Part shown: positions 13,021-60,843 of the stretch, piece after piece | How the letters are laid out: every line of letters begins with the position of its first letter | Position numbering within the stretch: position 1 is the first letter of the stretch | Source: Owenia fusiformis | Lineage: Eukaryota; Annelida; Polychaeta; Sabellida; Oweniidae | DNA length: 64,000 bases | NCBI GenBank assembly: GCA_903813345.2 | Contig: CAIIXF020000005.1 | Coordinates: forward strand, 9,117,375-9,181,374 | Direction of reading: 5' to 3' | The notes under the pieces: model-generated | Told to the model about the DNA's origin: nothing | The model's input: only the letters and a program-made list of their open reading frames with translations | Database searches by the model: none | Translations under genes and position numbers: made by a program

Positions 13021-13764
13021 TTATATTCCAACAAGATATGGGTTCGGATCAGGACCTCTATAAGGGGCACTATCGCACCAAAAATCTTCTGGCTGACCTC
13101 TCAGCATCAACCATTTAACTGTACCGAGAGTTTTCTGAGTCTCTGCATCTATCTCCACTTGCTTGAAGTATGAGCACTCTCTGGTTCCGTGATCATGGTC
13201 ATAAGGGGGTGCAAGAATGTCAAGAAAAGCCATCGGTCCATTGATGGCAGTTATCTCATGTATGTTTCCTTTGACTGGTTCAACTTCACACATGCCATTG
13301 TTGTCTATTACATTATCAGCTTGTTGTTTTGTCGCTATCAAGTACTGACTTTGCCACTGTTTTACCTTGTCTAGAACTACCTGGGGCGGGTCGCGATTTT
13401 TTATTTCTGTGAACGACCGTATCCGTGCCTTTCCATGTAAGAGTTTACAGAGTCCATACATATTTGGGTGATTATGGAGCGGTATTGTAGCACCATTTCG
13501 CAACACAAATATGCCTATTGAGAAAACGTCTGTCTCCCAAATATTCACATACGTCACTGGGGCAGAAGTTGGATTTCTCATTGAGAAAACATCAGTGTTT
13601 TTCACAAGATCGTTGTCGAAGTTTAGATCTTCTGGTGTAATACTATTCACTAGTGCCTTTAATATCGACATTTGATCATGCAGGACGTTTCGCTGCAGTT
13701 TATTCTGAAAAGTATCAAACGCTGCTCGAGCGACTTTCTGGATTCGGGCCGCCATTTTGTCCAT
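13021..13764 (-). CDS. ADO: 2-aminoethanethiol (cysteamine) dioxygenase, single exon
   Basis: 247 residues in one uninterrupted frame. ADO is an Fe(II) thiol dioxygenase that oxidises cysteamine and, in vertebrates, N-terminal cysteines of proteins in an oxygen-sensing route. The cupin metal ligands are visible: H97 and H99 in IPLHNHP and H169 in GNIHE. The C-x-Y pair that forms the Cys-Tyr crosslink in the human enzyme is present as C197/Y199 in RECSYF. Other family marks are FLDILAPPYD and DFWC near the C-terminus. The start chosen is the first Met; a second Met at residue 4 is equally possible and sits in AAAATGGCGGC, a YY1-like context. The protein lacks the long insertion between ligands seen in the human protein. 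It is head to head with BIN3. Confidence 0.96.
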   Translation of the reverse strand: MDKMAARIQKVARAAFDTFQNKLQRNVLHDQMSILKALVNSITPEDLNFDNDLVKNTDVFSMRNPTSAPVTYVNIWETDVFSIGIFVLRNGATIPLHNHPNMYGLCKLLHGKARIRSFTEIKNRDPPQVVLDKVKQWQSQYLIATKQQADNVIDNNGMCEVEPVKGNIHEITAINGPMAFLDILAPPYDHDHGTRECSYFKQVEIDAETQKTLGTVKWLMLRGQPEDFWCDSAPYRGPDPNPYLVGI

Positions 13765-13983
13765 AATATCACGTGACCAATATTTTCATTTGATGATATT
13801 TGACTTATATAGATGGTGAAAGACCAGTATACATTGATATTTTGTGAGAATATAACACATAGAATCGTCCAGGAAAGTACTAATATACCATACAATGGAA
13901 ATACCTTGATAAATGTAGATTTATTTTCTGTTGACTTTTGACCTTGGTATGACCTTGAAAAGCAGGAAGTGAAAAAAATAAAA
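13765..13983. promoter_or_regulatory. ADO/BIN3 divergent promoter
   Basis: Only 219 bp separate the two start codons, so this is likely a shared bidirectional promoter. Visible elements are a palindromic TCACGTGA E-box at 13769-13776, 5 bp from the ADO ATG, and two nuclear-receptor half sites, TGACCTTGG at 13939 and TGACCTTGA at 13950-13958. The reverse complement of the second is TCAAGGTCA, the ERR/SF-1 consensus. Function is inferred. Confidence 0.65.
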
Positions 13984-22075: not shown

Positions 22076-23650
22076 CTAATGACACTTTTGAACATCTTTT
22101 GATAGGAAATCTATCTTACATATCTTGCATTTACCAGACTTCCTTCCTACTAAACAGTCCCTACATATAATATGTCCGCATGTGATCTTATACTTGCCAT
22201 TAGGCTTTGGTTCACTATCACACTGTGCACATAGTTTAGACAGATCTTTAGCAGGTTTAACAAACTTGCTATATGTAGGCAGGTAATTTAGGGAAGAGCT
22301 TAGTGCCTGGTCTAGACTATCACTAAGTTTGGTGCTATGGGAAGGTGTTCCTTTGGCATTAGACTTAAACTCTACTTTTTGTACCTTTGCAGCTGTAGGT
22401 TTATGTTCAGTTTGATCTTCATCTGTAAGATCAATTATATCTGTATGAGATCTCTTCAGTGGGGTTATTGTACTTTCCTTTGATACATTACATCTAATTC
22501 CGGTGTCTTTATGTTCCATTTGAGCACCTTGAGTACTTGAGGAATAGCTAGGTATAGGTATTTTTGCAATGCTCGAAGTTCCTCCTAGATTCTTTCCAAC
22601 TGATGTAAAAGTATCATCATTATTATGACCAAGAGTCCTACCAACATGTTTCAAAGAGTCCTTATCACTGTTGGTCAATAGGAACTGATCAATTCTGGAT
22701 TTTAACCCAGCATTCAGTAAAGGCTTGTGGCTGTCTGTGAAGATTACACCAGTGAAAGGATCACTTGGGGAACGTCCCCAATGAGCCTCGTATTCTATGT
22801 ATTTATCAAGGGTGCACTGGTCGATGGTATGGCCTGATGGTAACACAGAAGGAAGTGCCATTATCTCCATGGTCAATGGATCAATAAACTCTGGTGGAAT
22901 CTCAACATCATTTGGAAGGCTTGCCTTTTGTGCTGTATCAATGTCTGCTTTACATGGGCTGGATTCAGATGTGTTATCATGCACACTAACTGCAGGATGT
23001 GGGTTGATGTTGATGATATTATAGTTAATTTGTTGAATGAGGTTGGTTAACTGTCTTGGAGTACATAGAGCTGGTTGTCCCCAAATCTCTAGAGATTTCA
23101 TACCAGGTATAGCTCCCGCCAATGTCCTTGTGATCCTGATCATCACATGACTCACAGATCTGAGTGTCGCCACCCTATGGTGCCTCAAATCGCCTTCTAT
23201 GCAATTGTTCATATTCACAGAAATTTGGCTTTGATTCATTCTTTGCCTATTGCTTCTATTTACAAAACGTATCATTTTTGGTTCATCCGTGTATATCTTC
23301 CCTATCGGATAAAAAGTATCGGATGAAGAACTTACTTTCAAATCTGGACATTTATCTGTATCCATCAGCCAGCACCCTCTATTGAAGGATGACTGAGTTA
23401 ATATCTCAAAACCACATGATTTCTGTCCTCCAACTATGGGATTTATAACGACACTCTGTAAGTCTACATTACATGGGAATTCTACCGTAACACATACTGG
23501 GGGCTTTATGAATCTCTCAACCATGAAGCCACTGTTGCTCATAAACAAACCAGTTTTTCTAACTAAGTTTTCCACTTCATATCCATCTGCACAGACTTTA
23601 TCGCAGGATATCCTAGGCTTGAATGGAGGAAGACAGAAGTTGATTGACAT
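22076..23650 (-). CDS. UBOX5: U-box domain-containing protein 5 / RING finger protein 37
   Basis: 524 residues in one coding exon (human about 541). The N-terminal domain begins MSINFCLPPFKPRISCDKV and continues with FIKPPVCVTVEFP and LEIWGQPA, as in the UBOX5/RNF37 family. The U-box is at about residues 252-325 (PPEFIDPLTMEIMALPSVLP, WGRSPSDPFTG), and a C-terminal RING-like Cys/His cluster is at about 474-511 (CAQC, CGHIICRDC, CKIC). The protein is a predicted E3 ubiquitin ligase working with UbcH7/UBE2D-type E2s, mostly nuclear in vertebrates. Residues 330-470 are low in structure with the acidic DIIDLTDEDQ motif, which could be a SUMO-interacting type sequence. On the minus strand TTTTCAG lies 2 nt upstream of the ATG, so a 5' non-coding exon probably splices in there. 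Confidence 0.95.
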   Translation of the reverse strand: MSINFCLPPFKPRISCDKVCADGYEVENLVRKTGLFMSNSGFMVERFIKPPVCVTVEFPCNVDLQSVVINPIVGGQKSCGFEILTQSSFNRGCWLMDTDKCPDLKVSSSSDTFYPIGKIYTDEPKMIRFVNRSNRQRMNQSQISVNMNNCIEGDLRHHRVATLRSVSHVMIRITRTLAGAIPGMKSLEIWGQPALCTPRQLTNLIQQINYNIININPHPAVSVHDNTSESSPCKADIDTAQKASLPNDVEIPPEFIDPLTMEIMALPSVLPSGHTIDQCTLDKYIEYEAHWGRSPSDPFTGVIFTDSHKPLLNAGLKSRIDQFLLTNSDKDSLKHVGRTLGHNNDDTFTSVGKNLGGTSSIAKIPIPSYSSSTQGAQMEHKDTGIRCNVSKESTITPLKRSHTDIIDLTDEDQTEHKPTAAKVQKVEFKSNAKGTPSHSTKLSDSLDQALSSSLNYLPTYSKFVKPAKDLSKLCAQCDSEPKPNGKYKITCGHIICRDCLVGRKSGKCKICKIDFLSKDVQKCH

Positions 23651-23696
23651 AACTGAAAATTAAAGCACATGTTTTTTTAATCAAAATGAAAGTGCG

Positions 23697-27271: not shown

Positions 27272-27328
27272 ATGAATTTTGAGAATGTGGAGAGCCAACC
27301 GCGAAAAAGACTGATTGTGAAGTGGCAG
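27272..27328 (+). CDS. Candidate orphan first exon (unidentified gene)
   Basis: ATG opens MNFENVESQPRKRLIVKWQ and runs straight into CAG|GTAAAT, a plausible donor at phase 0. The codons read as ordinary protein and the upstream DNA has promoter-like CRE-type TGACGTCA (26782). No homologue recognised. The next downstream sequence is the piggyBac insertion, which would then lie in this gene's first intron. The exon at 34677 is on the same strand but in a different phase, so at least one further exon would be needed to join them. Confidence 0.3.
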
Positions 27329-28067
27329 GTAAATAATGTTTCCAAAATGATAAACCTGTGTATAGTTGTAACCATTTCATTGTATTTGTCGTAACTATAT
27401 CCTTATTTTGCTTGATTATTATGAAAATTTATGTGTTTGAAATTTGTTCAATTTTTTGGAAACTTCCATTCCATTCAAAAATCCCCAGGGTTTTCATTTG
27501 GCCATCTTTTTGAAAATACAGAAGCTACATTTATTGTGTCTGTCAACTCATTTTGACATCAAATGCACGTGTATCAGTCATCATGTAAATCTTCATACAT
27601 TGTGTAAATCTTCATCTCTGATTTGAGGTGCATGTTTTTACCTTTATCGCATCCTACGACCCCCACTACGTTACCACGGCTTGCAACTATTGTCATGGTC
27701 AAATCAGTCATTAACATTATCATGGTCATGACAGGCCCTGCAATATAATATAGCACTGTCACGGTTATACCAGGCTTTCACGATAACACTATCACTGTCA
27801 TGGCAGGATTCTTGTGCAACTTAACCCACTCACTACGGCCCCATGCTATTTCGTCAGCAATCTGACGATGGTATTCTGGACCAGCGTCTAGAGGCATGTC
27901 AGGGTGACACCCATCATGAATTGTATAAAATTGAAGATTTATACTTACTTTGTTGATTATATGTACTTTTTTGATGTATAATAAGGTTTAACATGAAAAA
28001 AACATAAAGAAAAAAAAAAAATTGAAAACACGACTTTGTTGATTTTTCCCGTGATGCACTTGTCAAA

Positions 28068-31000
28068 ATGGCGGAAAATTTAAAACGCCCTGCTAGAGAT
28101 GCAAAAACAAGAGCCTTACAGTTCTTTCAAGACGGGTTTTCACTTGATGGGGACTCTAGTGATGAAGATGGTTTACCAGAGCATGAGGAGAACCAATTAG
28201 ATGAGGATTTTATGAGAGCTAGGTATGTAAAATGTAAGATGATTGTGTTGTTCGTCAGTTGTTGTCAGTTTCAAAAAATGAAAAAAAAACTTTTTGCAAG
28301 CAAAACACGAAAAAAAGTAATTATGCGAGGAAAAGACTGATTACCAACCTTTTTCAAAATACAAAGTACCATAACATGGTATTTTACCATAGGAAATAGC
28401 GATGAAATGTCCATAAAATTGCTGAATAAGTTACTTCCGGTCCATCGCGAGTGGGCGATAATAGGGTACATTCAAGTTTACGCACTTTTCTATCTATCTG
28501 CTTCAATAAACAGAATCAGTTAACCAGTATACAAATATGACTGTTGCTTCTTTATTTGTTAATATCTATAAATATTGCTTCTTTTACCCAGATTTCCATG
28601 TCAATTCATACTACCTGCATCCCATGGCAAAATTTTCAAAATCTATGATATTTGAACAGGCTTTTTCAACATTTTAGGCAAATTGATAATAGTGATGCTG
28701 ATTCTACAGCTGATGATGATACTGATTCTGATGACAGTCTTGCTGACAATGGTGTTGATTCTGATGATAGCCTACCTGATGCCCCTGGTCCAGGAGGAGA
28801 TGCAGCACAAGGAAGACCTTTGCCCCGGGATGTGGCTAATGACCAGATAAAATACGGGTATGGTCAAAATGATATTGCCCCCAACCCATTTCAATTTCGT
28901 CCAATCAAAGAGCCAGGCATCCAACTTGGAAGGCTTACCCGTAATGGTCTACTGCAGTTTACCTCTGCCCTTTCCATATTTTCACTATTCTTCTCAGATG
29001 TCATTTTACAAGAAATAGTCATCAACACAAACCTTTATGCCTGGTTAAATATCTTAGACAAGCCATCATATTCTTCTGCTGATGGAGGCTGGCAAGATGT
29101 AACTGTCCCAGAAATTCGACAGTTCATTGCTATATTGATTTATATGGGATTTGTTGATGTGGCAACGATTGACAGGTACTGGTCATTGAAGACATTGTAC
29201 AATGGACTATGGGCTAGGAGGTTTTTGTCCAGAGAAAGGTTTCAGGCAATTTTGGCATTTCTTCACATATCAGATCCAACACGAGAGGTCCCATTTGTGC
29301 AGGATAAACTAAGAAAAATACGCAATTTGATCGACCATATTCAGAATGTTTCAATTGAACTCTTTCAACCAGATCAAAATGTGTCAGTAGACGAACGCAT
29401 GGTCAGATCAAAACATCACAGTGGATTTCGGCAATTCAATAAGGACAAACCTGTCCGGTTCGGATTTAAATTGTTTGTTTTGGCCGAAACGGACTCAGGA
29501 TATACATTCAAATTCAAAGTCTACACTGGCAAAAACAATGAACCAATAGGTGACAATGGAGTTGCTTACGATGCGGTCATGAGTCTAATGCAGGGCCTAT
29601 TAAACCAGGGATATCGTGTATTTTACGACAACTGGTACAGTAGTGTCGCACTCGCAAATGAACTGGTATATAACAATACAGACTGTTGTGGTACTATGCG
29701 TGAAAACAGGGTCGGCGTTCCTCAGACATTGAAACATAAATGGGTCAAACCTAACAGAGGTAGTCTTAGGCTAGATTTTCCAGGGTCATTGTTGGTTTGT
29801 TGTTGGGCTTGTTGGTTAGAAATGGTTTGATGGCTTAGTTTTCAGCTTTATTCTTGATAACATTTTTATATTAACACATTTACCAGTTATGTATTAATAT
29901 TATTATTACTTATAGAATTATATTTATTTCTTATATGATCATTTAACGTTACACTTAAAGTATCAATTTTCTGTTTTGAAATAATTTTTTCCCTTGATAA
30001 TGCTGTTATAATATAGGGTAACGAACATGTTTTTGTGAAAAGAATGTTGAGAATAATAGAACTGTGGGTTTATTCACATTTTAGTGATATTATGTTCATT
30101 GCCATAAAACTTGCTAATTGAGATAGTATTGAACTGTATTTATTTCTTACCAATAGCTCATATTTCACCATGAAGTTTAACTTTACATTTAATGTATTTT
30201 TCTAGGTAATGTCAGGTATGTTAGGCAAGATAGGCTGTGCTTTCTTCAGTGGAAAGATTCCAAACTGGTGACCATGCTATCATCTTTTGGATCAGTATCC
30301 CAACATGATTTTGTGAGGTAAGCATAAGGCTTTTGATAGAAATCAGAATTTTCTCAACACTCAACAATTTTCTCAGAACTCTGTGCTCTTTTTTCATATG
30401 TGCTGAAATATACTTGTGACAGTTCCCATATGATTGACATTGCAGAACTAACTTTACAGTTTACCCTGTAAATTATAAATGTTTGATTATGCTAATTTCT
30501 AACTTAGGCTACTGCTATTTATATGTTTAGACGTATGGTGAAGCAAGCAGGTCAATGGAGACAAACGCTGGTGAGAAGGCCAAACATTATTTCTGCATAC
30601 AATAATGGAATGGGAGGGGTGGATAAGTCTGACCAGTTGATTGCAAGGTAAATAATTTGATGGTTTTGATATTTTATTCCAGCATGCATTCTACATTTCA
30701 AAACAGATGGACCAATATCAATAAATATGGGTTATCTTGCATGTGTCTTAGTAAATTATTCTGTTCCAAAATAGTAAAAATACCATAGGCCTACCATTTA
30801 CAGGTGGGGTGGAAATGAAACTTGATTGCTCTTTCTGATTTTCACATCAGACATTTTGATTTTATCAATAAATATGGGTTATCTTGCATGTGTCTTAGTA
30901 AGTAAATTATTCTGTTCCAAAATAGTAAAAATACCATAGGCCTACCATTTACAGGTGGAAATGAAACTTGATTGCTCTTTCTGATTTTCACATCAGACAT

Positions 31001-31762
31001 TTTGATTTACTTTCAGGTACAACATACTTCAGAGGAGCAGGAAATGGTGGAAAGTGCTATTTTTTCACATGGTGGATGTTGCAGTAGTGAACAGCTACAT
31101 ATTGTTCAATCACCTCAGGACAAAGTTCCCTGACCACCCTGATTTGCAGAGACCAGCAAGTAAGTTGCTGACTTCTTATCACTTTGAGATGAAATGCATT
31201 TATATAGATTATTGTGAATGCATTTAAATGTACATAGATTATTGTATAGTAAATGTGGTTTGAAAATAGTGATTAGGGTCTTTTGATGTTTGACTTTTTG
31301 AGTAGGGCTTATTTTCTCTGCATTATTACAAAATGTAGGTAAATTGCAATAACTATGTTATAATTTTTTTTGTGTTCATATTGACAATGAAGTAAAATGT
31401 TGCCGCTAACTTTTCAATTGATTCCTATACAAATACTATGCTAGCTGAGTAGCTGTATGTAATACTGTGGTATATTTTCAGGATATGGTCAACTCGAATT
31501 TAGGGAGGAGTTGGTGAGGCAACTTGGAAATATTGCCAATGATGAAGGCGTTCCACCACCATCATCATCAGCCCGTAACGTTCTCAAAAGTGATGCTGCA
31601 ATGCATCTACCTCTCAGAACAGACAAGCAGAGGAACTGCAAACTTTGTTACCAGCAAAGTAGGACGGAAAGAAAATCAATTTGGAAGTGCAATGTTTGTG
31701 ACAAATACTTTTGCTTGAATGAAAGAAACTGTTTCACAGCCTTCCATTTGAATCTTAGATAA
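28068..31762 (+). CDS. piggyBac transposase (PGBD4-like, DDE_Tnp_1_7), six exons
   Basis: Exons 28068-28222, 28678-29759, 30206-30317, 30531-30647, 31017-31159, 31482-31762 join in frame to 629 residues, without stops or frameshifts. The donor of exon 2 (G|GTAGTC) is the weakest junction, but the joined text there (KPNRGNVRYVRQ) follows the family. The N-terminus is acidic and serine rich, with two DSDDSL repeats (about residues 68-84) that look like casein kinase 2 sites, known to inhibit DNA binding in the moth enzyme. Catalytic aspartates are all present: D290 in SVDERM, D369 in FYDNWYSS, D481 and D484 in GGVDKSDQ. The C-terminal cysteine-rich domain that binds the terminal repeats has C589, C592, C606, C609, C614, C620 and H624. 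It excises and inserts DNA at TTAA. Could be active or newly domesticated; intact TIRs favour a mobile copy. Confidence 0.93.
30717..31008 (+). repeat. 147-bp tandem duplication in piggyBac intron 4
   Basis: Two adjacent copies starting ATCAATAAATATGGGTTATC (30717 and 30864) differ only by a 4-bp gain and a 5-bp loss. Both carry the intron's 3' half, but only the second is followed by the TTTCAG acceptor. Confidence 0.93.
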
Positions 31763-32181
31763 AAGATAAAATTAATGGAGGTAACATTGAATTTGTAAGC
31801 AGAGGAATTGTAAGTACTAGGATGTTACCAGCAAAGTAAGATTGAAATTAAATCAAATCAGGAATGCAATATTTCTGAGATGGAAGAAACTGTTTCACAG
31901 CATACCATTTGAATTCAATTACTGTGTAGGTACTAGGTAACATGGAATTTGTTAAACATGGAGGTTCTGTAACCCAGGTATTTTTTTACGCTTACTATAT
32001 TTCATGTTTTCGCTAATTAATTTTTGGATTTTGACACTATTAAATGTTTCGTAGGCCTATTTAAAGTGCCAGACTGTTGAAAGAGATTACCTACACTCAG
32101 GTGCTACTGTTTTCTAGTTAAATCACATTTTTAATACAATTAAATGTGTATTTTATTCTATAAAAGATAGATTCAAAATGA

Positions 32182-32187
32182 AATAAA
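32182..32187 (+). terminator. Polyadenylation signal of the piggyBac transposase
   Basis: AATAAA 420 nt after the stop codon, inside the element. Confidence 0.55.
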
Positions 32188-32346
32188 GGACTGGTAGGTA
32201 AATATTGGTGTATATTTTGTCGTTATTAACCCAAAAAGTGCTTAAGTTGTACTTTGCATCTAAATGTTTATAAACGGTGTCATTGCGATGTAATCTCATT
32301 TGAATAATTAATCATATGATATAGGTTTTTGGAAATGTGTATTTTT

Positions 32347-33264
32347 AGCTTTAAAATGATATGTAGCATGCCAGGGAAGTATGAAATGTATTGAATGGAG
32401 GTTAGTCCTTACTAATGGGCATTTTTACAACGATTCGCGCATTTTTATTGCTAATCGCCATTTTTATGACTTTTCCCAGCATGTTCAAAGACCTGTAATT
32501 TCTTTATATGAAAGAGTTGGGAGGTCATTGATAGCCCATTGTAAAGCTCTGATCAAATGCTTCGAAATGACATATAACACTTATCCATAAATATGGGGAG
32601 TGTTGGTCAATCTCAAGGTAACCATGAAATTTTTGTGAATTTTTCACACTTTTTACAATCGTACAGTCATTTGTAACGTCACAATGACGTCATCTCATTT
32701 GCATAAATTAGCATATTTTATCAAAATTGGAAACCATGGCTTATAAGCTTTACAATGAGGTATAACTTTCCAGGGAAGTGTTAAAAGAATTGATAATAAC
32801 AAACTTTATTCATGATATTGGCCATAGAGTCAAATGGTCAATGGGCATTTTTACAACGATTCACACATTTTTCTTGCTTATCGCCATTTTTATGACTTTT
32901 CCCAGCATGTTCAAAGACCTGTAATTTCTTTATATGAAAGAGTTGGGAGGTCATTGATGGCTCATTGTAAAGCTCTGATCAAATGCTTCGAAATAACATA
33001 TAACACTTATCCATAAATATGGGGAGTGTTGGTCAATCTCAAGGTAACCATGAATTTTTTGTGAATTTTTCACACTTTTTACAATCGCACAGTCATTTGT
33101 GACGTCACAATGACGTCATCTCATTTGCATAAATTAGCATATTTTATCAAAATTGGAAACCATGGCTTATAAGCTTTAAAATGAGGTATAACTTTCCAGG
33201 GAAGTGTTAAAAGAATTGATAATAACTAACTTTATTCATGATGTTGGCCATAGAGTCAATAAAT
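32347..33264. repeat. Subterminal 426-bp tandem repeat of the piggyBac element (about 2.2 copies)
   Basis: Landmarks recur at exactly 426 bp: AATGGGCATTTTTACAACGA at 32414 and 32840, TTATAAGCTT at 32741 and 33167. Units start at about 32347, 32746 and 33172 (the last partial). Each full unit contains CACAATGACGTCATCTC, a CRE-type palindrome, followed by the octamer ATTTGCAT. Repeated binding sites near one end could serve transposase or host factors; this is inference. Confidence 0.9.
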
Positions 33265-33419
33265 TCTTTAAAAATGGGCTGTAGTTAAAGGGTTAAAAAC
33301 ACGTTGTGACATGGTGACGGTTGAGCCAGGCATAAGTCTTGCAACAGATAGGGTCTCGCATATTTGCACCTGCAATGTATATCTTCACCAGTTATTACTA
33401 TTTCTTCTCTGGTACTGTA

Positions 33420-58830: not shown

Positions 58831-58995
58831 GGATGGCGATGTGTGAGCTTTGTTACTGAGAGTACTGTATTTCCTTTGTGAATTGTGTATTTTAACATTC
58901 CATTTGGATCTGTTGAATGTGAGATAATAGACTGACTTCATTACATCATAGAGCGCCTACCAGATAACATTTGACAGATCACATATTTTATAAAA

Positions 58996-60843
58996 ATGTT
59001 GAATGGTAAAATGTTGTTGAAAGTGAGACGAGCGACTGGATTCGGCCAAGCTCCTTATCGCAGGTATAGAGGCATGAAATCGAACTTCCTGTTAATCTTA
59101 TGGGGCCTCTGTATGCTTTCTATGATCAGCGTGCTCATCATATATCTATACATCTCCAAGAACAATGAAAAGGTTTTCCATAATGCTAGTGACATACACT
59201 ACACTGATATTGACGATACACCAAAGAGCGTACCAGGAGCCACAGAAGTCGAAGAACTTGATGAAGCTAAGGCTTTGGATTTTAGCCTAACATTTACGAC
59301 ACTTGTTGATAATAAGGATGTAGCTTTACAACGAGGCTGGTGGATGCCACATGTTCGCTGGAAGGAGGCGGTAGAATGCGACAACCAGGAATGGGGAATC
59401 TGTGCAAAGGTTCTCAGCGTATCCTGTAAACCTGAAAGCATCAGAGCCATCTATCAGTTCATACCAATACTAAATGAAGCCCCACTTCGGGGATTCTATT
59501 TCTCAGTGAGAAGCTCTGGAAAATATCTCAAAAAAATTCCCAATCCTGACAGGGGTCACACTGAGTTTTTCTATGGTGCAGTGGCTGTGATTCGTTTCAT
59601 GGATTTTAGCAATCACACCTTACAGTTGAATTTTTCTCCTTCAGATGAAAATCTCTACATGCATTCAGAGATACATTATATGTTACCACCAGGCGATCTT
59701 AAAGTTACTAGTGTTACCATAATGTTAGGTTGTTATGGCTACGCTGGTTTGGTGAAATTCACTGATATTAATTTGAAACCAATCAGATTACAAGAAAGAA
59801 ATGAGATTCCACGTGAGTTAACACCTTTCGATTTTATCTCAAAATGTCCACAGTTGCCTTCTCCTCTCCCTAAAGTGCCAAAATTTAAAACGCAACAATT
59901 TTTGATATCGAATGATAAATTTGACAGTCACATGTTAAGCTTGGTTACCTTAGTAACACAACTCTCAATGGATAGATTAAACATTGCTGCTGAAATACTT
60001 CAAAATTGGGACGGACCGATATCACTCGCGATTTATGTCCCAGCTGGTGACTCCAATAATCAATGGAAGGAGCAGTATGTCCATAAAAAACTACAAGGAA
60101 TCAAAATTGGACCCCATTGTGATGTCACAGTCATGTATGGGATTCACCCAGATGAGCGGTATCCTATCAACATGTTGCGTAATGCCGCAGTTAGAAGTGT
60201 TCGAACGGAGTATATGTTTCTTGTTGATGCAGATTTTCTTCCGTCACCTAATTTCCAAGAAATATTTGACATGACATTAAAAGCTAACTTCAAAAAAAGA
60301 TCTCACGAATCATTTGATAAAACTGCTTTTGTCGTCCCCGCTTTTGAATATATGGAAGACCCGGAGCCCACAGACCCCTTAGCACATTCAAAAGCTGAGC
60401 TTCTTGAAATCGTCTTGAATGAACAGTCTAACATTGAAGTATTTCGAATACTAGAATCACCAGATGCCCATAAACCTACAGATTACCAAAGATGGTACAC
60501 CAATAGCAAAATATATAGGATCAAAAATTATCAGGACAAATACGAGCCATATGTAGTGCTCCGCAAAAATGATAAAGTGCCTTTATACGATGAACGCTTT
60601 GATGCATATGGAATGAACAAAGTTAGTTTTATAATGGAATTGAAAGCTGCTGGATATGAATTCCTTGTTTTACCAGACTCTTGGGCCATACACCTACCAC
60701 ATATGCCCACCCCCTTTAACTTTGCCTTTCTCAATAGCCCCTTGGAGAGACTAAGGAATCGTGTATTGAGATTTGAATTTAATGCAGATCTTAGTAGGAA
60801 ATACAGGATCGGAGGTTGTGTGGAACAAATATTCATGAAATAG
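58996..60843 (+). CDS. GT49-family glycosyltransferase (LARGE/B4GAT1-type), type II membrane protein
   Basis: 615 residues in one exon. A single membrane segment at about residues 31-53 after a basic N-terminus predicts a Golgi type II protein. The C-terminal 300 residues read as the GT49 domain: SLVTQLSMDRL-type start, ISLAIYVPAGD, YPINMLRNAAVRSVRTEYMF, the DXD metal site D411-A412-D413 in FLVDADFLPSP, VVPAFEYMEDP, and the YDERFDAYGMNKVSF and SWAIHLPHMPTPF motifs. In vertebrates this domain transfers glucuronic acid (B4GAT1, LARGE). Residues about 98-275 (RGWWMPHVRWKEAVECD onward) form an additional beta-rich domain absent from B4GAT1, while LARGE has a GT8 domain there instead; it looks like a lectin or carbohydrate-binding fold. 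Acceptor sugar unknown. No introns; the first Met was used, a second is at residue 6. Confidence 0.9.
   Translation: MLNGKMLLKVRRATGFGQAPYRRYRGMKSNFLLILWGLCMLSMISVLIIYLYISKNNEKVFHNASDIHYTDIDDTPKSVPGATEVEELDEAKALDFSLTFTTLVDNKDVALQRGWWMPHVRWKEAVECDNQEWGICAKVLSVSCKPESIRAIYQFIPILNEAPLRGFYFSVRSSGKYLKKIPNPDRGHTEFFYGAVAVIRFMDFSNHTLQLNFSPSDENLYMHSEIHYMLPPGDLKVTSVTIMLGCYGYAGLVKFTDINLKPIRLQERNEIPRELTPFDFISKCPQLPSPLPKVPKFKTQQFLISNDKFDSHMLSLVTLVTQLSMDRLNIAAEILQNWDGPISLAIYVPAGDSNNQWKEQYVHKKLQGIKIGPHCDVTVMYGIHPDERYPINMLRNAAVRSVRTEYMFLVDADFLPSPNFQEIFDMTLKANFKKRSHESFDKTAFVVPAFEYMEDPEPTDPLAHSKAELLEIVLNEQSNIEVFRILESPDAHKPTDYQRWYTNSKIYRIKNYQDKYEPYVVLRKNDKVPLYDERFDAYGMNKVSFIMELKAAGYEFLVLPDSWAIHLPHMPTPFNFAFLNSPLERLRNRVLRFEFNADLSRKYRIGGCVEQIFMK

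Follow-up and report, generated by a model that had tools for sequence, protein, structure and literature searches.

The locus studied here raises the question of whether a piggyBac element whose transposase gene is split by five introns is still a transposon or is on its way to becoming a host gene. Introns in a piggyBac transposase gene are often read as a sign that the host has tamed the gene, and the initial annotation of the window (the whole stretch of 64,000 nucleotides of Owenia fusiformis DNA that was analyzed) had allowed either that the element may still be mobile or that it is caught early in domestication. The complete element lies on the forward strand at positions 27821 to 33296 and measures 5476 bp including both TTAA. 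From 27821 it reads TTAACCCACTCACTACGGCCCC..., and it runs out at 33296 in ...GGGCTGTAGTTAAAGGGTTAA; the edges annotated initially are borne out, with TTAA on both sides and inverted tips that agree at 13 of the 18 positions after TTAA. The alignment of other copies stops at these edges, beyond which their sequences are unlike, and an uninserted paralogous site gives the same limits. Copy alignment and a tip pattern search define the left TTAA with its inverted tip (27821 to 27842, forward strand) and the right inverted tip with its TTAA (33275 to 33296, reverse strand). The tip pattern TTAACCCNNTNACTACNGCCC has 12 listed genomic occurrences, every one of them at an end of a window-family copy, and the same pattern written backward gave 0 matches on each strand. 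Short terminal inverted repeats adjoining TTAA are a piggyBac superfamily feature, and the tips of this element are listed in the genome only at copy ends. The window element is a structurally complete member of this superfamily; as a transposon its type is a known one, and what is notable is how it is built. Below, F1 is the window family, F2 its sister, F4 a second relative, and F3 a more distant one.

The gene model of the initial annotation also holds, as six exons on the forward strand join into one frame of 629 codons with the catalytic residues D290, D369, D481, and D484. Exon 1 (28068 to 28222) is followed by exon 2 (28678 to 29759; exon model and Pfam), which holds most of the DDE domain with D290 and D369, exon 3 (30206 to 30317), exon 4 (30531 to 30647), with D481 and D484, exon 5 (31017 to 31159), and exon 6 (31482 to 31762), which carries the C-terminal Cys/His stretch and the stop. 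All five introns of the window copy are GT-AG, with phases 2, 1, 2, 2, and 1: intron 1 (28223 to 28677, 455 bp, phase 2), intron 2 (29760 to 30205, 446 bp, phase 1, after residue 412), intron 3 (30318 to 30530, 213 bp, phase 2), intron 4 (30648 to 31016, 369 bp, phase 2, within which about 150 bp are duplicated in tandem), and intron 5 (31160 to 31481, 322 bp, phase 1). Introns 1, 3, and 5 were placed by the exon model and cross-family comparison. In intron 2, 22 donor/acceptor pairs keep the frame open, 3 of them with a GC donor; the pair adopted has the best-looking donor by eye and a position that recurs exactly in two related families, and intron 2 sits in the same place in three other families (in F3 by eye). 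The predicted protein is a DDE_Tnp_1_7 transposase with the DDD(D) residues of the superfamily: the Pfam match covers positions 2 to 349 of the 349 in the model (E = 1.8e-85), and the protein is related to piggyBat (9c0f; E = 1.9e-45) and piggyBac (6x67; E = 7.6e-27). The C-terminal Cys/His domain described initially stands as a pattern visible by eye and conserved in F2, but no Pfam zinc-finger model matched this stretch in a Pfam search of the transposase. A sequence scan confirmed the AATAAA poly(A) signal (32182 to 32187) and gave a TATAAA at 27924 to 27929 as a possible promoter box, both on the forward strand; F2 has neither TATAAA nor TATATA within its first 300 bp.

The initial annotation had proposed looking for further copies and for empty TTAA sites, and both were found. 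F1 occupies eight loci in the 498-Mb genome, with exon-2 identity of 98 to 100% in the main ones, and each of six aligned copies lies only 0.24 to 0.44% from their majority. The full 629-codon frame and identical splice sites are kept in four of these six, the window copy having three replacement changes absent from the other three intact copies. Both exact tips occur in five of the eight loci, with TTAA at both edges and unlike flanks, and three of the four open-frame copies carry both. Decay of the family is nevertheless under way: two loci (C10 and C11b) have internal deletions but keep both tips, a third carries a 6.9-kb insertion and is missing its final 13 bp, a fourth is a fragment, and the open-frame copy C11a has lost its left TTAACC. 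Uninserted paralogous sites with a single TTAA match the joined flanks of three of the five insertions, the window included, in keeping with the duplication of the TTAA target at insertion that marks the superfamily. Uninserted sites for C4 and C10 were not seen among the 40 candidates scored of 2084, where 39 of the 40 top rows were one repeat. Such paralogous sites are evidence of clean insertion, not of excision. An exact-tip pattern search of the genome listed no short non-autonomous relatives with the same tips beyond the eight loci.

Near-identical copies, intact tips, and uninserted paralogous sites together show that F1 moved recently. The window element is very probably a recently transposed, structurally complete piggyBac, whose splicing and expression are predicted and whose present activity is possible. 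As far as sequence goes, near-identical dispersed copies with unlike flanks, TTAA edges, uninserted sites, and the four of six aligned copies whose frame is open also favor the suggestion that it may still be mobile.

The introns have a longer history than the copies that carry them. F2 and F4 are also TTAA-ended, with protein identity to F1 of 58.6% and 53.8% (the latter over exon 2 only), and each has five introns with the same phases as F1, while F3 has intron 2 (by eye) and lacks introns 3 and 4. Intron sequences of F1 and F2 do not match each other, and the tips of F1, F2, and F4 are unlike one another. Between F1 and F2, dN is 0.37 and silent sites are saturated, giving no silent-site value and hence no between-family dN/dS; in the piggyBac tree, the F4 row contains a few wrong residues from an earlier intron 2 acceptor and a missing intron 5. 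Several near-identical copies exist in two of the three full-ended intron-bearing families, and the same genome also has piggyBac loci that lack introns, six of which were read and have open frames. The shared places and phases indicate that the introns are older than F1 and were already carried by the ancestor that at least three full-ended families have in common. The pairing of five introns with intact ends, which the initial annotation had singled out, is therefore real and notable but no paradox, since this build recurs in no fewer than three full-ended families belonging to one clade and one intron was already known in the mobile element Pokey. Because three full-ended families share the five introns, introns in a piggyBac are in themselves no sign of domestication.

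The ends of these families share further structure. A 16-bp palindrome with 6 of 8 pairs lies at 27852 to 27867 (forward strand), offset 31 from TTAA, and F1, F2, and F4 have one at the same offset with differing letters (0 of 20000 shuffles); by analogy with piggyBac and piggyBat, it may be the binding site of paired Cys/His domains. At the right end, a 426-bp tandem unit (32414 to 32839, forward strand) is followed by a second (32840 to 33265, forward strand), 97% identical over 420 bp. The motif ATGACGTCATCTCATTTGCATAA occurs on the forward strand once in each, at 32684 to 32706 and at 33110 to 33132, the latter at a distance of 164 bp from the right tip. F1, F2, and F4 all have such a duplicated unit at the right end, and the motif is conserved in it. 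A genome DNA search with 86 bp of the unit returned only the window family; a pattern search for the motif also picked up F2, so DNA searches of this kind miss diverged copies. We speculate that a whole clade of piggyBacs acquired its introns step by step during its mobile life, beginning with intron 2, and carries in its duplicated right-end unit a TGACGTCA and ATTTGCAT module, ending 161 to 164 bp from the tip, that would be needed in cis either for transpososome assembly or for switching the enzyme on in host cells with CREB- and POU-type factors; as a whole this proposal is tentative and rather doubtful.

Could the window locus instead be a young domesticated or half-domesticated host gene with its transposon ends still present? 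Five introns, retained catalytic residues, and a single open frame would suit such a gene, and the domesticated piggyBac gene PGBD5 also bears introns (the relevant part of PMC3902484). A domesticated gene would be expected at a single locus with ends lost or decayed; here there are eight loci, five with both tips, and near-identical copies sit at unrelated TTAA-edged sites. The intron set predates F1 and is common to other full-ended families, and coding changes within F1 are not clearly constrained: 17 replacement and 10 silent changes among the six copies (shared changes counted in each copy) do not clearly depart from the 2.65 to 3.73 to 1 expected without selection. Domestication of the window locus, one of several equal copies, was accordingly rejected as highly unlikely, leaving the initial suggestion of early domestication unsupported. 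Scarcely credible is a reading in which the introns are unspliced insertions that break one frame; the many open donor/acceptor pairs of intron 2 would permit it, but three families have GT-AG junctions that agree in place and phase, although the intron sequences of F1 show no match to those of F2, and this argues otherwise, and it was rejected on the shared places.

It is also improbable that F1 copies were moved in trans by the transposase of another family, such as an intronless one, while their own spliced gene lay idle. The six intronless open-frame loci could supply such an enzyme, and the internally deleted copies C10 and C11b, with both tips, suggest that some copies may move without their own. 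Against this, tips differ among the three families compared (F1, F2, and F4), and protein identity to F2 was kept despite saturated silent sites, as were the splice places, which indicates that the spliced gene was used. A substantial possibility, if short of probable, is that F1 was recently mobile and is now dead, its copies silenced or its transposase inactivated by point changes, a reading that overlaps with recent transposition. Every aligned copy departs from the majority, copies are few, and structural damage affects four of the eight loci, with a tip lost in a fifth; yet in four copies the open frame, the catalytic residues, and the splice sites are all retained, and three of these copies have both tips.

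For a recently transposed element of this structure, we propose that an internal promoter would yield a pre-mRNA whose six exons the host spliceosome would join, giving a 629-residue DDD/D transposase. Judging by piggyBac and piggyBat structures, a pair of Cys/His domains could bind the left palindrome, which lies 31 bp in from the edge, and the tips would be bound by the catalytic core. The element would then be excised and inserted at a new TTAA, duplicating that site; TTAA edges and uninserted sites show the insertion step, and excision is presumed. As the element moves as DNA, its introns would travel along with it. The element is also a naturally occurring case where transposition could be gated by splicing, and its conserved right-end module lends itself to deletion.

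Among known systems, the piggyBac of Trichoplusia ni (Ifp2, 6x67) has a DDD/D transposase, a TTAA target, and inverted tips, as in F1. The length given for it in the consulted portion of PMC12324416 is 2475 bp, compared to 5476 bp for the window element. PiggyBat of Myotis lucifugus (9c0f) also has a DDD/D transposase, aligned over residues 101 to 609. Its left-end imperfect palindrome is bound by two Cys-rich domains and its right end presumably has no such site, according to the part of PMC11707139 drawn on here; F1 has a left-end imperfect palindrome too, with different letters. F1 differs in its longer ends and duplicated right unit; its own gene has five introns. The excerpted account in PMC3902484 counts piggyBacs as single uninterrupted frames, with PGBD5 and the piggyMacs of ciliates excepted, a rule from which the five-intron F1 gene departs. 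The mobile Daphnia Pokey is a long piggyBac with internal repeats and a transposase intron proved by RT-PCR (PMC3575242, PMC3849761, and PMC3315735, each in part). Pokey has one intron of about 68 to 84 bp, in contrast to five of 213 to 455 bp in F1, and its repeats, unlike those of F1, are located upstream of the gene and are similar to the host ribosomal spacer (same excerpts). Vertebrate PGBD5 is a piggyBac transposase gene split by six introns (PMC3902484, in part); the likeness to F1 is in the splitting as such, and unlike F1 the chordate gene is domesticated, single copy, and without ends, with three of four catalytic aspartates lost. As far as its excerpts go, that paper leaves open whether the PGBD5 introns preceded domestication, a question that now becomes a comparison of intron places. 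If the stepwise-intron clade is real, domesticated genes like PGBD5 could have their introns from an intron-bearing mobile ancestor.

The segment at 27821-33296 is a complete element from TTAA to TTAA and is a piggyBac by its edges, inverted tips and transposase; a C-terminal Cys/His stretch is visible by eye and conserved in a sister family, but matched no Pfam zinc-finger model. TTAA stands at both edges, and the imperfect inverted tips that follow (left TTAACCCACTCACTACGGCCC; right TTAACCCTTTAACTACAGCCC, read inwards) are identical at 13 of 18 positions. Six exons (28068-28222, 28678-29759, 30206-30317, 30531-30647, 31017-31159 and 31482-31762) join into one frame of 629 codons; the five introns, all GT-AG, measure 455, 446, 213, 369 and 322 bp, and TATAAA at 27924 and AATAAA at 32182 flank the gene, both within the element. 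The predicted transposase holds D290, D369, D481 and D484, which align with their counterparts in intronless relatives and in piggyBat. It matches Pfam DDE_Tnp_1_7 over model positions 2-349 of 349 (E = 1.8e-85), as well as the solved transposases of piggyBat (E = 1.9e-45) and piggyBac (E = 7.6e-27). The edges, inverted ends, single frame over six exons, five introns, four aspartates and poly(A) signal described in the initial annotation were borne out on the window sequence. Intron 4 carries a tandem duplication of about 150 bp (30716-31008) that is missing in the copy on contig C10, so intron length differs among copies, with splice sites untouched. Just upstream of the element, a 19-codon ATG frame (27272-27328, +) runs into a donor-like GTAAAT and could be a host first exon, the element sitting in a host intron. 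Other open frames in the window lie at 22076-23659 (-), which matches DUF5918, U-box and, weakly, RING and resembles a UBOX5/RNF37-type ubiquitin ligase; at 13021-13785 (-), with a match to PCO_ADO (E = 4.6e-51), a thiol dioxygenase family; and at 58975-60843 (+), with 622 codons and a Glyco_transf_49 match.

A genome search with exon 2 located other copies of the element's family, F1, which occupies eight loci in the 498-Mb assembly: C5 (the window copy, within C5:9117375-9181374), C8, C7, C4, C3, C10 and two on C11 (C11a at 15.08 Mb, C11b at 31.58 Mb). Left-end and right-end searches each returned seven loci, with matches stopping exactly at the element edges save in C11a, where the left match starts only at position 7, and C7, where the right end is without its last 13 bp; beyond the edges, the flanks show no likeness. 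The tip pattern TTAACCCNNTNACTACNGCCC was listed 12 times genome-wide, at six left and six right F1 ends (backward control, 0), which places both tips at five of the eight loci. Six loci were aligned (C5, C8, C11a, C11b, C4 and C10); C7, which carries a 6.9-kb insertion, and the decayed C3 were omitted. These copies diverge from the majority letter at 0.24-0.44% of sites. In four (C5, C8, C11a and C4) the full 629-codon frame is kept and the splice sites are the same, whereas C10 is shortened in frame by 183 bp and C11b by large deletions.

For the five copies with both tips, 75-bp flanks were joined across one TTAA and searched in the genome, 40 of 2,084 candidates being scored. Among those 40, C11:31167917-31168050 matches the joined flanks of the window copy at 118 of 134 bases with a gap-free joint, at least 39 dispersed repeats match those of the C8 copy across the joint at 94-99% (the two inspected each hold a single TTAA), and C3:32264144-32264283 agrees with those of C11b at 130 of 139 bases, a gap of 3 bases lying some 20 bases away from the joint; none was found for the C4 and C10 copies among the 40 scored. 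Empty TTAA sites, a check proposed with the initial annotation, are at hand for the window, C8 and C11b copies; although paralogous, not allelic, these sites bear out both the edges and the duplication of the TTAA. The repeat that received the C8 insertion is dispersed and homogeneous, has an inverted arm, occurs at no fewer than 39 genome places and is apparently a young mobile element itself.

Near-identical copies, unlike flanks and uninserted sites support recent movement of F1. With regard to the earlier suggestion that the element may still be mobile, they speak for recent rather than present mobility. The other suggestion, that the window locus is caught early in domestication, is unsupported, as the locus is one of several equivalent copies. 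The six aligned copies depart from the majority by 17 replacement and 10 silent changes (a change common to several copies being scored once per copy) against a neutral expectation of 2.65-3.73 replacement changes per silent change, so single copies give no clear sign of selection. The proteins of F1 and its sister family F2 share 58.6% identity across 606 residues, with a dN of 0.37 and silent-site divergence too great for a value, which argues that the protein has been constrained in the long term.

F2 occupies four loci about 99% identical (97.2-99.6% by piece), three of them bounded by TTAA on both sides and set in unlike flanks, and shares the F1 intron phases (2,1,2,2,1) at matching residues. 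A third family, F4, has one copy at C6:5111350 and another, 99% identical, divided between C8:38638550 and C8:38641615; along 303 exon 2 residues its protein is 53.8% identical to that of F1, and its five introns are in identical phases. In each of the three families, intron 1 is the one placed with least certainty, exon 1 being short and acidic. DNA likeness between F1 and F2 is confined to the exons and right-end unit, with no match in the introns. F3, a more distant family, is represented by two copies (L023 and L024, at C4:29672568 and about C4:28460914) that share their left tip at the TTAA and differ in their flanks; this tip reads TTAACCC, with a palindrome, ACGCGTATATATACGCGT, nearby. 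Compared at the places of introns 2, 3 and 4, F3 has intron 2 at the residue and phase of F1 (judged by eye), and its match to F1 is continuous over the intron 3 and 4 places (residues 422-508). Six further piggyBac loci read in the genome are intronless, with longest ATG frames of 436-601 residues. An unrooted tree of 11 sequences, all from the Owenia fusiformis genome and three partial, grouped F1 with F2 (0.994), next F4 (1.000) and next F3 (0.899). From this one genome, we infer as the simplest reading that intron 2 came earliest and that the rest were gained before the F1/F2/F4 split, always in mobile elements; alternatively, F3 may have lost introns rather than never gained them. A single piggyBac-like locus at C4:23724299 (L021) is continuous across the intron 2 place and has an altered context following its second aspartate (FTDSAYTS); it may be a host gene.

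At the left end, a 16-bp palindrome stands at offset 31 from the TTAA in F1 (CGTCAGCAATCTGACG, 6 of 8 pairs), F2 (CGTTAAATATTTTACG, 7 of 8) and F4 (CGATCACCGGTGATCG, 8 of 8) alike. F1 by itself is unremarkable, since a second stretch, at offset 97, also scores 6 and at offset 185 the right end has one with 7 of 8 pairs. The three families taken together are remarkable: when their 250-bp left ends were letter-shuffled 20,000 times, 0 shuffles reached the combined score of 21 at a shared offset, and the three right ends add up to 14 at their best shared offset. Flanking letters show the places to be homologous, so pairing was kept while letters changed. PMC11707139 describes left-end palindromes, unrelated in sequence, that are bound by two Cys-rich domains in piggyBac and piggyBat, the piggyBat right end being presumably without such a site. 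By analogy, we propose the Owenia palindrome as a putative site for two Cys-rich domains.

The right end comprises two tandem units in F1 (426 bp each, 97% alike), F2 (about 77% alike) and F4 (95.8% alike over 403 bp); that units resemble one another more inside F1 and inside F4 than across families points to re-duplication or homogenization. Every unit in F1 and F2 contains ATGACGTCATCTCATTTGCATAA, listed at one mismatch or fewer 21 times in the genome (control, 0): 14 in F1 and 7 in F2, against 8 expected, the C3 copy of F2 holding one. From the end of the last motif to the tip is 164 bp in F1 and 163 bp in F2. F4 has no match at one mismatch or fewer and one looser match (up to six substitutions) per unit, of a type also seen in 2 of 100 shuffled versions of the 10 kb searched; ATTTGCAT is retained there, and TGACGTCA (unit 2) or TGATGTCA (unit 1) lies further upstream than in F1 and F2. 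Sought at the F1/F2 distance from the motif, the right TTAA of F4 lies 161 bp from the looser match, with a tip equal to the left tip over 16 letters. This constant distance favors a role in end assembly, while resemblance to what we take to be consensus sites of CREB/ATF and POU factors (TGACGTCA and ATTTGCAT) favors a role in expression; we lean, by a little, toward end assembly.

According to PMC3902484, piggyBac transposases are single uninterrupted frames, PGBD5 and ciliate piggyMacs excepted; solely intronless homologues are reported from acorn worm, sea urchin, sea squirt and Oikopleura, and whether PGBD5 gained its introns before domestication is left undecided. In Daphnia, RT-PCR has proved a single intron, about 68 bp long, in the mobile piggyBac Pokey (PMC3575242 and PMC3849761). 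An intron in a mobile piggyBac is therefore not new in itself. Some intron-bearing piggyBac entries are to be expected in Repbase. Among the open full texts searched, PMC5601938, PMC8086355 and PMC8354472 included, we found no multi-intron mobile piggyBac. The five-intron clade, with its common end architecture, is a variant within piggyBac.
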